DNA of 64,000 nt. Origin: Sphaerisporangium album (GTDB taxonomy: Bacteria > Actinomycetota > Actinomycetes > Streptosporangiales > Streptosporangiaceae). The DNA lies in contig NZ_QOIL01000004.1 in assembly GCF_003323745.1 (NCBI RefSeq), positions 379,670 through 443,669 of the forward strand, written 5' to 3'. The notes below the pieces were generated by a model. The model was not told the origin of the DNA, did no database searches, and was given only the letters and a program-made list of their open reading frames with translations. Each line of letters opens with the position of its first letter. Positions within the stretch are counted from its first letter, which is position 1. Positions 58,170-62,593 of the stretch are shown piece after piece. A program made the position numbers and the translations under genes.

Positions 58170-60050
58170 TCAGCGGGCGGACTGGAAGGCGCGGCCGGCC
58201 TTCGTCGGGGTGCCGTTCTCGTGGAAGAGGCCGCTGCCGGGTTTGCGGGCGGAGGCGGACAGGCCGAACCAGGCGTAGCGCTTCACGTACGGGAGGGTGG
58301 TGAGCATGCGCGTCGAGGCGGTGACGAAGGCCGCCTGCTGGGCGTCGCTCGCGTAGCGGGCGCCGTTCGAGAAGTCGATCAGCGCGTACTCGGTGAGCCA
58401 GATCGGCTTGCGGTAGCGCTTGTACACGGACTGGATGTACGACCGTAGCTGGCTCACGGCGGCGGCGGTGCGGAAGTCGCCGCCGTACCAGTGGAGGGCG
58501 ATGAAGTCCACGCGGTGGCCGCGCTCGGCCGCGCCCGTCATGAAGCGGTCGAACCAGCTCCCGGGGGTGGCGGCGCCGAAGGCGACCGACGGGCTGCCGA
58601 GGACGCGCCCGGCGGACATCAGCTTGGGCCACAGGTCGAGCGCCTGCTCGACGGTCATGTCGGCCTGGCCGGGCATGTCCGGCTCGTTGAAGCCGAGCAG
58701 GTACGGGCCGGCGCGCCGGGCCTCGGCCAGTTTGGCGGCGGTGACGCTGGAGGCGCCCCAGATCATGGGAACGAACTTCGCCTTCGGCGCGGAGACCCCC
58801 TCGTTGCCCGTGGACCATGTGTAGTACCAGCTCGCGCCGGACTTGGCGAGCGCCGCGCTGCCTCCGGCGGCCCGCCACGCGGCCACGCCCTTCTTCACGG
58901 ACGCCGCGACGACGGGGGGCCTGGTCGCGCGGGGCGTCGCCTTCCGTGTGGGGGTGGCGGAGGGCGACGGAGACGGGGAAGGAGACGCGGAGGGGGAGGG
59001 CGTCGCGCTGAGGGCGATGGTGGCCCGGGGCGCGGGGGCCGGGGGAGGGATGGTGACATGCCGGGTGATCAGCACCCCGCCGACGACGACGGCCAGCCCC
59101 GCGACGGTCCCGGCCACCGGGCCGTGCGGAATCGAGGACAACAGCCCGCGCGGCCGCGCGTGCAGCGCGTGCGCCCCTGGGGACGCGCCGCCCCACCCGA
59201 GGGGAAGGTGTGAGGCGGCGCGTCCGGCCGCGTCGGCGGCGGTGAGGGTGGCATGCAGTTTGTCCAGGAGGAACCCGGCGGGGATCGGCAGAAGGGGCAG
59301 CCCGCCGAGCAGGCGGTCGATGGGGAGCAGGCCGGCCGCGCGCCGCCCGCAGACGGCGCACCCGCGGACGTGCCTGGCGAACCGCTTGCGCCACAGGGCG
59401 CTCGGCACGCCGTCCCAGTTCCAGGTGAGGGTGCGCAGCTCGGGGCAGCGCGGGTCGGCGTTCAGCGCCCGGACGACCATGCGCGCGGTCTGCACCTGCT
59501 CCTTCATGCGCTGCACGCGGACGGCGGCGTGGCGTCCGGACAGGCCGAGCGCGCCGGCCAGGTCGGAGCGGCCGAGCTCGCCGGTCTCCTCCAGCCACCA
59601 CAGGGCGAGGAGTGAGCGGTCGTCGCCGTCCAGCCAGCGGGTGGCCTCGGCGACCTCGCGCCGCTGGTCGGTGAGCCCGAGCCGCAGGATCGTCACGGCG
59701 GCGAAGTCGGAGGCGGGGTCGGGGATCTCCCTGGCGGTGTCGAGGTCGGTGCGGCGGTTGTGGAGGTTGCTGCGGTCCTGCTGGTGGTCGCGTACCTGGC
59801 GGACGGCGATGGCGACCATCCACGACCGGTAGGCACCGAGGTCGCGCAGGTCGGGCAGGCCGCGGACGACTCGGAGCAGGGTTTCCTGGACGACGTCGTC
59901 CACGTCGTTGTGGCCGTTGAGGGCGCGCCCGACGATGTTGTAGAGCAGGGGAAGCGATTCGGCGACCAGGGCGTCCAGAGCCCGCTGGTCGCCGTCGCGC
60001 GCGGCGGCCACCATCGACGTGTCGGGACCGCCCCTACCGGTTCCGGGCAT
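58170..60050 (-). CDS. Transmembrane ECF sigma factor fused to zinc anti-sigma motif and extracellular GH128 domain
   Basis: 626 aa from ATG 60050 with GGAG upstream. Residues ~24-95 are sigma region 2 (ALNGHNDVDDVVQETLLRVV; YRSWMVAIAVRQVRDH) and ~145-195 region 4 (SDLAGALGLSGRHAAVRVQR). Cys202 and His227-x3-Cys231-x2-Cys234 form a zinc anti-sigma signature. One helix spans 309-329 (HGPVAGTVAGLAVVVGGVLI). A Pro/Ser/Thr linker (~333-380) leads to a GH128-like TIM barrel (~385-626) that keeps both catalytic glutamates, Glu456 in GFNEPD and Glu554 in WLTEY. The sigma part would be cytoplasmic and the GH part outside. The divergent gene encodes a secreted paralogue of the same domain. Fusions of ECF sigmas to C-terminal sensor modules are known; a catalytically complete GH128 as sensor is unusual to me. 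Confidence 0.9.
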   Translation of the reverse strand: MPGTGRGGPDTSMVAAARDGDQRALDALVAESLPLLYNIVGRALNGHNDVDDVVQETLLRVVRGLPDLRDLGAYRSWMVAIAVRQVRDHQQDRSNLHNRRTDLDTAREIPDPASDFAAVTILRLGLTDQRREVAEATRWLDGDDRSLLALWWLEETGELGRSDLAGALGLSGRHAAVRVQRMKEQVQTARMVVRALNADPRCPELRTLTWNWDGVPSALWRKRFARHVRGCAVCGRRAAGLLPIDRLLGGLPLLPIPAGFLLDKLHATLTAADAAGRAASHLPLGWGGASPGAHALHARPRGLLSSIPHGPVAGTVAGLAVVVGGVLITRHVTIPPPAPAPRATIALSATPSPSASPSPSPSPSATPTRKATPRATRPPVVAASVKKGVAAWRAAGGSAALAKSGASWYYTWSTGNEGVSAPKAKFVPMIWGASSVTAAKLAEARRAGPYLLGFNEPDMPGQADMTVEQALDLWPKLMSAGRVLGSPSVAFGAATPGSWFDRFMTGAAERGHRVDFIALHWYGGDFRTAAAVSQLRSYIQSVYKRYRKPIWLTEYALIDFSNGARYASDAQQAAFVTASTRMLTTLPYVKRYAWFGLSASARKPGSGLFHENGTPTKAGRAFQSAR

Positions 60051-60149
60051 CGCACTCCGCTCTCTGTCGGTCGTCCCCGTCACGGTACGACGGACCTGGA
60101 CGATTCTCCCCAAAGTCCGCAAATGGGGAGACCAGTGTTGGCCTTCTGA

Positions 60150-60241
60150 ACAGGAGACGGGCCGGCGACCTGCGGACAACGGAAATCGGCGAACTTCTTT
60201 CCAGGTTTTCGTTGTCCGCCATCGGCCCGGCGGTCTCCTGT
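60150..60241. promoter_or_regulatory. Symmetrical divergent promoter region
   Basis: ACAGGAGAC (60150-60158) is inverted at 60233-60241, and GCGGACAAC (60172-60180) is inverted as GTTGTCCGC at 60211-60219, with matching GGCC blocks between. Each gene therefore sees nearly the same upstream sequence. This is what two copies of one sigma-specific promoter facing apart would look like. Confidence 0.6.
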
Positions 60242-60307
60242 GTGGCGGCACTCGCGTCGCTGCCGACGTCCCGACCCCCGACAGCTCTACGAAGGGCACT
60301 GAAGATC

Positions 60308-61687
60308 ATGAGTGAGACTGTTCCGCCGGCCGCCGCACCAGGACGTGCGAGCCGGGGGATGCGTCGCATCGCGGTCGCGAGCGTCTTCGCCGCCGTCTTG
60401 GGCGTCTCCCTCGCGAACGGCACCCTCCCGGCCGGTGCGGCCGACGTTCCCCTCTCGCAGGGCCGCACCGCCACAGCCTCCTCCGCCGAGCGCGGCGACC
60501 TGTCGGCCTCGGCCGCGGTGGACGGCAGGACCGGGACGCGCTGGTCCAGCAAGTTCAGCGACCCCCAGTGGCTCCAGGTCGACCTCGGCAGGTCCACGGC
60601 CATCAAGAAGGTCGTGCTGCGCTGGGAGAACGCCTACGCCACACAGTTCAGGATCGAGTCCTCCACGGGCGGCGGCGCCTGGACCACGCTCTACTCCACC
60701 AGCTCCGGCAAGGGCGGCACGCAGACGCTGAACGTCTCGGGCACCGGCCGGTACGTGCGGCTCTACACCACCAAGCGGTCCGGCAAGTACGGCGTCTCCC
60801 TCTGGGAGTTCCAGGTCTTCGGCGCGGGCGCGGCGGCCACCCCGACCCCCACCGTCAAGCCGACCTCCAGCACGAGCCCCAAGCCCTCCCCGAGCACGAC
60901 CCCGACCAAGCCGAGCGCCACGCCCACCAAGCCGTCCGACCCCGCCACGCCGTCCACCAAGAAGGGCGTGGGCGTGTGGAAGATGAACAACGTCAGCGAC
61001 GCGCTCGCCAAGTCCGGCGCGGGCTGGTACTACACGTGGGCCTCGCGTCATGACGGCGTCACCACGCCCAAGGGCGCCGAGTTCGTCCCCATGGTGTGGG
61101 GCGCGGCCAGCGTGAACGACCAGACCCTCGCCGAGGCCAAGGCCGCCGGCCCGTACCTGCTCGGGTTCAACGAGCCGGACATGGCCGAGCAGTCGAACAT
61201 GTCCGTGGACAAGGCCCTGTCGCTGTGGCCCAAGCTCATGGCGGCCGGCAAGGTGCTCGGCAGCCCCGCCGTCGCCTACGGCGGCGACAGGGCGGGCGGC
61301 TGGCTCGACCGCTTCATGACGGGCGCCGCGCAGCGCGGCTACCGCGTCGACTTCGTCACCCTGCACTGGTACGGCGGCGACTTCCGCGCCGACGCGGCGA
61401 CGGGGCAGCTCAAGTCCTATCTACAGGCCGTGTACGAGCGCTATCACAAGCCGATCTGGCTCACCGAGTACGCGCTGATCGACTTCTCCAAGGGCGTCCG
61501 CTACCCGACCGAGGCGCAGACGGCGGACTTCGTCACGGCCTCGACCAAGATGCTCAACTCGCTGTCCTACGTGCACCGGTACGCCTGGTTCGGCCTGCCG
61601 GCCTCCGACACCGGGCCGAGCAGCGGTCTGTTCCACGGCAACGGGGTCGCCACCCCGGCCGGCCGCGCGTTCCAGGCAGCCCCCTGA
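60308..61687 (+). CDS. Secreted CBM32/discoidin - GH128 glycosidase (probable endo-beta-1,3-glucanase)
   Basis: 459 aa from ATG 60308; ATG 60359 (MRRIAVASV) may be the true start of the signal peptide, which ends near AGA. Residues ~46-172 are an F5/8 type C (discoidin, CBM32-like) sugar-binding domain (ATASSAERGDLSASAAVDGR; WLQVDLG; YVRLYTT). A Thr/Pro/Ser linker spans ~177-217. The GH128 barrel (~219-459) keeps Glu289 in GFNEPD and Glu387 in WLTEY. GH128 enzymes cut beta-1,3-glucan. The catalytic domain is closely similar to the ectodomain of the divergent sigma factor. Confidence 0.88.
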   Translation: MSETVPPAAAPGRASRGMRRIAVASVFAAVLGVSLANGTLPAGAADVPLSQGRTATASSAERGDLSASAAVDGRTGTRWSSKFSDPQWLQVDLGRSTAIKKVVLRWENAYATQFRIESSTGGGAWTTLYSTSSGKGGTQTLNVSGTGRYVRLYTTKRSGKYGVSLWEFQVFGAGAAATPTPTVKPTSSTSPKPSPSTTPTKPSATPTKPSDPATPSTKKGVGVWKMNNVSDALAKSGAGWYYTWASRHDGVTTPKGAEFVPMVWGAASVNDQTLAEAKAAGPYLLGFNEPDMAEQSNMSVDKALSLWPKLMAAGKVLGSPAVAYGGDRAGGWLDRFMTGAAQRGYRVDFVTLHWYGGDFRADAATGQLKSYLQAVYERYHKPIWLTEYALIDFSKGVRYPTEAQTADFVTASTKMLNSLSYVHRYAWFGLPASDTGPSSGLFHGNGVATPAGRAFQAAP

Positions 61688-61987
61688 CCCTGCTCCCCTC
61701 CCATAACCCAACGAAGGACCTCATCAGACATGAGGGCAACTGTTCCGGAGCGTACGTCAGGCCTTCAATGCCTGGCCGGCGGCCGAACTGGAGCGGCGCA
61801 TCCGCGACTGCATCCGCCCGATCGTCAAGTGCGGCGCCGACGGCACCCCCTGACGGTGACCGTTTCCCGGTGACCTGGGGTGGGGTCCGGTACGGCCGGC
61901 CCCGCCCCGGCCCCGACGGCACCATCTGCGTGCGCGGCCCGGGGAAGCGGCAGCGCACGCACGAGACGAGCGACAGAAGGAGCCGAA
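61688..61987. other. 300-bp gap with a small gene remnant
   Basis: The plus-strand frame RSVRQAFNAWPAAELERRIR then DCIRPIVKCGADGTP and a stop (about 61750-61853) looks like the end of a lost gene but belongs to no family I recognise. GC-rich inverted repeats near 61870-61920 follow. No complete gene. Confidence 0.3.
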
Positions 61988-62593
61988 ATGAGGGCGGCCA
62001 TCGCCGGCGTGCCGGTGCTCGTGGTGCTCTGCGTCCTGCCTATCGCGAGCTGCGCCCCCGGATCGGACGCCGGTGGACCCCTCGCCGTCGCCGCCGAGGC
62101 GCCGTCCCGGACGACGGGTCCGCTCGCGGACGGCAGGCCCGGGGACGGCACGCGCACGGCCAACGCCACCGACGTCGCCTGGCTCCAGCTCGCCATCTCG
62201 ATGACCGGCCAGGCGCTTCGCCTGCTCGGCTCCGTGCGGGATCGGACGTCCGATCCGGCGCTCATCCGGGCGGCGGCACGGATGAGCGAAGCCCACCGCG
62301 CGCAACTCGGGCGCCTGCGCGAGCTGCTGCGCGCGACCGGCGTGCCGGAGAGCGACGAGCACGAAGGTCACGACATCCCGGGCGTCGTCACGGCCGACGA
62401 CCTCGCCGTTCTCGGCCGGGCCCAGGGGCCCGCGTTCGACCGGCTCTTCGCGCGGCACATCGGCGAGTACCTCCGGCAGTCGGTCCTGGTCGCGGCCGGC
62501 GAGCGCACGTCCGGTGCCGACCCCGAGATCAAGATCTTCGCTGCGGCCCTGTCGAGGGCCCGCACCGCGGACCTCGCCCAGCTCCCCTCGTGA
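61988..62593 (+). CDS. DUF305-like lipoprotein
   Basis: 201 aa from ATG 61988 with AAGGAG upstream. Signal (AAIAGVPVLVVLCVLPIA) with a lipobox IASC. The mature part is a four-helix-like DUF305 domain: DVAWLQLAISMTGQALRLLG, ALIRAAARMSEAHRAQLGRL, FDRLFARHIGEYLRQSVLVA. These helical (ferritin-like) exported proteins are often near metal or redox genes; here a ferric-reductase-like gene follows 42 bp later. The metal ligands seen in other DUF305 proteins (H/M-rich) are partly replaced. Confidence 0.72.
   Translation: MRAAIAGVPVLVVLCVLPIASCAPGSDAGGPLAVAAEAPSRTTGPLADGRPGDGTRTANATDVAWLQLAISMTGQALRLLGSVRDRTSDPALIRAAARMSEAHRAQLGRLRELLRATGVPESDEHEGHDIPGVVTADDLAVLGRAQGPAFDRLFARHIGEYLRQSVLVAAGERTSGADPEIKIFAAALSRARTADLAQLPS

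Follow-up and report, generated by a model that had tools for sequence, protein, structure and literature searches.

Extracytoplasmic function (ECF) sigma factors with fused C-terminal domains have been described in several forms. In the ECF52 and ECF53 groups, the parts run in the order sigma factor, zinc finger (likely a zinc-associated anti-sigma [ZAS] domain), one or two transmembrane helices, and extension (PMC8999054, PMC10766802). Proteolytic activation is expected for ECF48, ECF52, and ECF53 (PMC8999054), and ECF52/ECF53 sigma factors with predicted glycosyl hydrolase domains have already been covered in reviews (PMC10766802). The locus described here lies in a 64,000-nucleotide stretch of the Sphaerisporangium album genome (contig NZ_QOIL01000004.1; referred to below as the window), in which a single gene encodes an ECF sigma factor, a ZAS-like site, a predicted membrane segment, and a glycoside hydrolase family 128 (GH128) ectodomain and faces a divergent gene for a secreted enzyme with the same catalytic fold. 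Because the two genes share a promoter motif that is rare in the genome, it is very likely that the sigma factor of the fusion protein drives the facing glucanase gene as well as the gene that encodes it.

The ECF52 sigma factor SCO4117 of Streptomyces coelicolor likewise combines an ECF part, a zinc finger, a transmembrane helix, a proline-rich linker, and an extracellular carbohydrate domain, and both autoregulation and release by a protease have been proposed for it (PMC5826349). It differs in having a carbohydrate-binding domain where the fusion has GH128, in its proposed motif (CSGYN-17bps-SRHA, compared with GTTRTCC-N15/16-GTCTCC for the fusion), and in its regulon, which is pleiotropic and developmental, whereas the regulon predicted for the fusion is a few secreted proteins. 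An extracellular glycoside hydrolase is also the sensor in SigI/RsgI systems with GH10, a domain found among the RsgI anti-sigma factors of Clostridium thermocellum, and there too polysaccharide-degrading genes are under sigma/anti-sigma control (PMC12203970). Unlike the fusion, SigI/RsgI consists of two proteins, its sigma-I is not an ECF sigma factor, and it has an autocleaving periplasmic domain. We take the GH10-bearing RsgI of C. thermocellum to be RsgI6. In IutY (ECF243) of Pseudomonas putida, sigma factor and membrane anti-sigma factor are one protein, from which regulated intramembrane proteolysis frees the sigma factor; IutY differs in serving iron-starvation cell-surface signaling, and the accessible description mentions no glycosidase (PMC8999054).

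An original prediction, made from the letters of the window, had taken ECF sigma factors with fused C-terminal domains to be a known class, as ECF52 and ECF53 bear out (PMC8999054, PMC10766802), and had regarded the use of an enzyme as a sensor as seemingly new. The second claim is not supported, with the glycosyl hydrolase domains of ECF52/ECF53 (PMC10766802) and the GH10 domain of RsgI (PMC12203970) already in print. The architecture is already published as a type; the present contribution is the predicted regulon with its promoter signature. The accessible descriptions of ECF52 and ECF53 give no promoter, regulon, or GH128/beta-1,3-glucan assignment of the kind made here for the fusion. In a literature search, neither this promoter or regulon nor a combination of GH128 and a sigma factor turned up; subscription journals were poorly covered, and this is weak evidence of absence. 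Among the matches listed, none linked a bacterial sigma factor with thaumatin.

Architecture of the fusion protein

The fusion gene (58170..60050 of the window; all of its features are on the minus strand) is a single open reading frame (ORF) of 626 amino acids from its ATG. The one-protein architecture that had been predicted for it, with sigma regions 2 and 4, a zinc motif, a membrane helix, a Pro/Ser linker, and a GH128-like domain, was confirmed by the ORF, by Pfam and NCBIfam searches, and by alignments. Sigma region 2 (residues 28 to 93; 59772..59969) was identified by Pfam model PF04542 (Sigma70_r2; E = 8e-11) and by matches to sigma folds. NCBIfam model TIGR02937 (sigma70-ECF) spanned residues 24 to 188 with 46.8 bits (cutoff, 42.9), and region 4 (residues about 116 to 197; 59460..59705) was assigned from this coverage and from the helices present at the expected position in AlphaFold models. 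Structure prediction could have revealed a fold other than that of a sigma factor; instead, the solved folds nearest to the model of residues 1 to 265 were ECF sigma factors, with CnrH bound to CnrY and SigW bound to its zinc anti-sigma factor RsiW as the best fits (E = 4e-4 to 1e-3; root mean square deviation [rmsd], 5 to 7 Å). TIGR02937, PF04542, and the CnrH/SigW fold match together point to a sigma factor of regions 2 and 4 only, as is the case for the ECF type.

Anti-sigma domains of the ZAS type (class I) carry the motif HxxxCxxC plus an upstream Cys or His ligand. The predicted motif, His227-x3-Cys231-x2-Cys234, was exact, and a fourth ligand, Cys202, had been overlooked. All four residues were invariant in the 74 aligned proteins and also in alignments A1 and A2. 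Since Cys202 is among them, the zinc site is best described as CHCC (residues 202 to 237; 59340..59447), and its sequence is that expected of a ZAS anti-sigma domain. None of the ZAS models of Pfam matched the fusion protein. The strongest hydrophobic stretch, a predicted membrane segment, peaked at residues about 310 to 334 (59049..59123), where a transmembrane-like peak was present in 74/74 proteins and AlphaFold confidence was low. The residues that follow (335 to 383; 58902..59048) are, by sequence composition, a low-complexity linker rich in Pro, Ser, Thr, and Ala. The Pfam scan found no counterpart of an autocleaving periplasmic domain in the fusion protein, and its anti-sigma site and ECF sigma factor share one chain, unlike RsgI, which is a separate anti-sigma protein. 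The features by which ECF52 and ECF53 are described (C-terminal extension, zinc finger, one to two transmembrane helices, and occurrence in Actinobacteria) are all present. In the 2021 classification, membership in ECF53 (type member, WP_030276194.1) is set by group profile or phylogeny; the likeness of the fusion to ECF53 is one of description.

The ectodomain (residues 384 to 624; 58179..58901) matched Pfam PF11790 (Glyco_hydro_cc) at residues 402 to 622 (E = 9e-51). Its closest solved relative was AmGH128_I of Amycolatopsis mediterranei (PDB 6uaq; E = 1e-82 by sequence), to which it compared by fold with a TM-score of 0.95 and 55% identity. It has the TIM-barrel fold and the AmGH128_I catalytic pair of GH128 subgroup I; AmGH128_I as solved is an enzyme of 263 residues and has no sigma part. 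In the PDB entries of AmGH128_I mutants (E102A; E199A/E199Q), the altered positions correspond in alignment to E456 and E554. Because both were kept in 74/74 aligned proteins, down to about 49% identity, the sensor has retained the residues of an active enzyme, which agrees with the original prediction of a GH128-like ectodomain with both glutamates (456, 554) in place.

Distribution of the fusion

In a single scan of genome contigs for homologous loci, the best 80 of 125 confirmed relatives were kept and yielded 78 loci, all actinobacterial by their record titles. Sigma factor and GH128 were encoded in one ORF at 72 of these loci. The other six were GH128 only (L057 and L080, plus L071, which lies at a contig start), were split into two ORFs (L068 and L073, both from Streptomyces), or were cut by a contig end (L069). 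Hosts of the fusion include Sphaerisporangium, Planotetraspora, Nonomuraea, Herbidospora, Acrocarpospora, Streptomyces, Actinacidiphila, Micromonospora, Actinoplanes, and Hamadaea. The concern raised with the original prediction, that a survey of other genomes might expose the fusion as an assembly error, is ruled out by the single-ORF fusions at 72/78 loci. A metagenome-assembled genome labeled as Frankia has two sigma-GH128 fusions in tandem (L036:4731-9132).

Promoter motif and predicted regulon

Regions upstream of orthologous fusion genes shared the motif GTTRTCC-N15/16-GTCTCC, often with TTTYY ahead of it. The motif pattern matched 61 of 77 fusion upstream regions, compared with 0.16 per shuffled set (either strand counted). 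In the window, the form GTTGTCC-N15-GTCTCC is found 102 nt before the ATG of the fusion gene (60153..60180, minus strand) and 69 nt before the ATG of the divergent glucanase gene (60211..60238, plus strand), and these copies are the predicted promoters of the two genes. A pattern that allowed spacers from 13 to 17 found no further copies in the window. Across the 9.3-Mb genome, GGAGACN{12,16}GGAYAACR had three matches (reversed control, 0), the third of which (C34:15098) lies 74 nt upstream of a CBM32-DUF1996 gene on the same contig, at a distance of more than 400 kb. Over its first 186 residues, which include CBM32, the encoded protein shares 68% identity with the same part of the glucanase. 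Four DUF1996 matches were found in this genome at E values up to 1e-10, and only one of them has a motif site. With 0 matches in reversed controls and 0.16 per shuffled set, chance occurrence of the motif was rejected.

Among 150 genomes of the family, a looser pattern had matches in 92, many of which resembled coding sequence, and its control gave some matches as well; a stricter pattern was therefore used for the counts. The strict pattern gave 46 sites in 30 of the 150 genomes (reversed control, 0). When downstream genes were labeled by BLAST against labeled reference domains, the sites were followed by 11 fusion, 9 CBM32-GH128, 18 CBM32-DUF1996, 1 thaumatin-like, and 1 DUF305 gene, by a contig end in one case (G035), and by no labeled gene in five. 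The 39 sites that precede fusion, CBM32-GH128, CBM32-DUF1996, or thaumatin-like genes are all in genomes with the fusion. At E values up to 1e-15, PF11790 was detected in 31/150 genomes, as part of the fusion in 28 (27 from fetched stretches plus the window's own genome) and as GH128 without a sigma part in three. The motif was present in 25/28 fusion genomes versus 5/122 others (Fisher P = 2e-20, uncorrected for kinship); genomes without a PF11790 match were counted as lacking the fusion, a count that rests on PF11790 and not on the sigma part. DUF1996 occurs in 67/150 genomes, and all 18 strict sites before CBM32-DUF1996 genes lie in fusion genomes. The shared divergent promoters, the three sites per 9.3 Mb at related genes, and this co-occurrence argue strongly for the original prediction that the tethered sigma factor would transcribe the glucanase gene.

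Outside the family, 25 genomes were chosen from the 78 loci because they bear the fusion, and a slightly wider pattern was used. It gave 27 sites in 19 of the 25 genomes (reversed control, 0), 18 of them at the fusion itself. Of the nine others, five precede genes for thaumatin-like proteins (PF00314, with E values of 4.5e-61 or lower), four in Streptomyces and one in Actinacidiphila. In the 78-locus set, the loose motif was found upstream of a thaumatin-labeled ORF in 16 of the 25 loci having one and upstream of 12 of 17 CBM32 genes. Further predicted targets in Streptomyces (L245, L255, and L256) comprise two secreted-looking proteins with a sub-threshold PATR match and one alginate-lyase-like protein. 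In Actinospica (L042:1347-3468), two thaumatin-like genes are close to the fusion, and upstream of both there is a loose copy of the motif.

The divergent gene and its neighbors

The predicted target that faces the fusion (60308..61687, plus strand) encodes a secreted enzyme of 459 amino acids, in which the Pfam scan found an F5/8 type C (CBM32-like) domain and PF11790 (E289/E387). Its catalytic domain is 67% identical to that of the fusion over 243 amino acids, as anticipated for a secreted enzyme with the same catalytic fold plus a CBM32-like domain. The predicted paralogy of sensor and target is present at this locus but is not general: the divergent gene is CBM32-DUF1996 in many relatives of the 78-locus set and thaumatin-like in five Streptomyces and two Planotetraspora loci among those scanned and so named. 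A GH128 neighbor as constant partner was rejected for this reason; the promoter and secreted targets are the constant feature, in a layout that is more general and of which the facing paralogue is a variant.

In a quick tree of 42 fused domains (from the 74 aligned proteins), 17 CBM32-GH128 enzymes, and 3 GH-only proteins, the secreted CBM32-GH128 enzymes nested inside the fused domains. A duplication from fused to secreted, suggested by this nesting, was not upheld by a more careful tree, from which three long branches were removed and in which a single branch separated the fused group from the rest (support, 65/86). Fused domains and secreted enzymes were separate sets in the trees.

Downstream of the glucanase gene, a short remnant without an intact ORF (61761..61853, plus strand) resembles the 3' end of a CBM32-DUF1996 gene, as judged by eye from three-frame translations compared with the DUF1996 C termini of L004 and L085. 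It is probably the leftover of a second target gene that is still present at this place in L004. The remnant is followed by a DUF305 gene (61880..62593, plus strand; Pfam). At L005, L015, and L055, the three relatives examined, the DUF305 gene is the second in a row of CBM32-DUF1996, DUF305, and ferric-reductase-like genes behind the divergent promoter (L005:915-4728, L015:1377-4808, and L055:1385-4904 on the minus strand), the last two of which have a redox/metal flavor.

Proposed mechanism and alternative explanations

Our preferred explanation, which we consider likely as a whole, is that the fusion is a glucan-sensing, tethered sigma factor that is released to drive a regulon with a rare promoter. 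The ECF sigma factor would be kept inactive by the fused ZAS domain and anchored through one membrane helix, providing transmembrane signaling in one protein. The extracellular sensor would be the GH128 subgroup I endo-beta-1,3-glucanase domain with its intact catalytic pair, and contact with its substrate would free the sigma part; the most likely substrate is beta-1,3-glucan, such as that of fungal walls. The best guess for the signal is beta-1,3-glucan, probably of fungal walls, because the sensor is GH128 subgroup I and the targets include GH128 and thaumatin-like proteins. Release would most likely proceed through stepwise proteolysis, by analogy with what has been proposed for ECF52/ECF53. 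The freed sigma factor would then transcribe GTTRTCC-N15/16-GTCTCC promoters, namely that of its own gene (autoregulation) and those of a very small secreted set. In this genome the set would consist of the divergent CBM32-GH128 glucanase and a CBM32-DUF1996 protein encoded far away; several Streptomyces would have thaumatin-like proteins in it. What the sequences themselves show is a conserved architecture, with its catalytic and zinc sites intact, and a promoter that is shared, rare genome-wide, and found together with the fusion; that the promoter is read by the fusion's own sigma factor rather than by another is what we infer from them.

Several observations weigh against this explanation. 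The -35 half of the motif is, as we understand it, not a textbook ECF element. The looser motif was missing from 16/77 fusion upstream regions, no strict site was found in 3 of the 28 fusion genomes of the family (G004, G135, and G147), and, outside the family, six of the 25 genomes chosen for their fusion had no site with the wider pattern. The four extrafamily sites at neither fusion nor thaumatin-like genes precede two related secreted-looking proteins, one alginate-lyase-like protein, and one ORF, with no clear family except for the alginate-lyase-like protein. Calling the DUF1996 proteins wall directed is a guess, because it is drawn from the company of their genes. Of the domains that a Pfam search had been expected to return (PF11790 and PF04542/PF08281), PF11790 and PF04542 were found, and no region-4 model of Pfam matched the fusion protein. 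Domain placement was of low confidence in the AlphaFold models (predicted template modeling score [pTM], 0.46 for the whole protein and 0.66 for residues 1 to 265), and the membrane helix is not modeled. The model of residues 1 to 265 speaks for the explanation insofar as it resembles a closed, inhibited sigma factor: anti-sigma-bound CnrH and SigW fit it best, whereas full-length ECF sigma chains bound to RNA polymerase fit it with rmsd values above 20 Å. This resemblance is a soft one, because the model is a prediction with a pTM of 0.66 and because anti-sigma-bound AlgU and Escherichia coli sigmaE fit it at only 12 to 14 Å.

The alternative that survives best is that the ectodomain senses by binding only, with no turnover needed, and that catalysis resets the sensor or the protein doubles as a cell-anchored glucanase; we rate this as quite possible, at somewhat less than an even chance. 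RsgI sensor domains include plain carbohydrate-binding modules besides GH10, and signaling there begins with substrate binding (PMC12203970); SCO4117, too, has a carbohydrate-binding domain at the sensor position (PMC5826349). Against it, both glutamates are kept in 74/74 proteins, where a pure binder could have lost one; entries of GH128 subgroup VII named oligosaccharide-binding proteins were among the fold matches. Because the catalytic pair is conserved throughout, the evidence leans towards catalysis having a role in signaling. It is less probable, and in our view unlikely, that the signal is the state of the cell's own envelope, with the GH128 domain as a wall anchor, rather than beta-1,3-glucan. 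Such a role would be in keeping with the control of development and antibiotic production by SCO4117 (PMC5826349), but endo-beta-1,3-glucanase is the name given to the solved GH128 subgroup I relative, and a further GH128 enzyme and thaumatin-like proteins are among the predicted targets. That some other sigma factor reads the motif, with the fusion gene merely one of its targets, is more improbable still: the motif is known from sequence alone and five genomes have it without a PF11790 match, but those five are exactly the genomes whose site precedes none of the labeled genes, whereas 39/46 sites do precede one, all in fusion genomes, and positive autoregulation is common for ECF sigma factors and has been proposed for SCO4117 (PMC5826349).

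Implications

The enzyme domains of ECF52/ECF53 have so far been predictions in the accessible literature, and here the ectodomain can be assigned specifically to GH128 subgroup I. A fusion of this kind opens a direct test of whether enzyme catalysis itself can be the signal, and the rarity of its promoter makes for low-noise prediction of the regulon across many genomes. DUF1996, which appears in the accessible literature in fungal vacuolar and stress proteins, gains a regulatory context, and the predicted regulon suggests that soil actinobacteria have an inducible set of proteins (GH128, thaumatin-like, and DUF1996) that is possibly antifungal.

In plants, thaumatin-like proteins are members of the PR-5 family (PMC8708996). 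More speculatively, and with the odds in our view against it, the fusion may be a bacterial pattern-recognition receptor for fungi, a membrane-anchored beta-1,3-glucanase whose own turnover of wall glucan would free the sigma factor for a compact antifungal set of beta-1,3-glucanase, thaumatin-like, and CBM32-DUF1996 proteins, and whose catalytic domain would be shared between sensor and target enzyme by duplication. If true, plant defense by PR-2/PR-5-type proteins would have a bacterial counterpart in a single protein.

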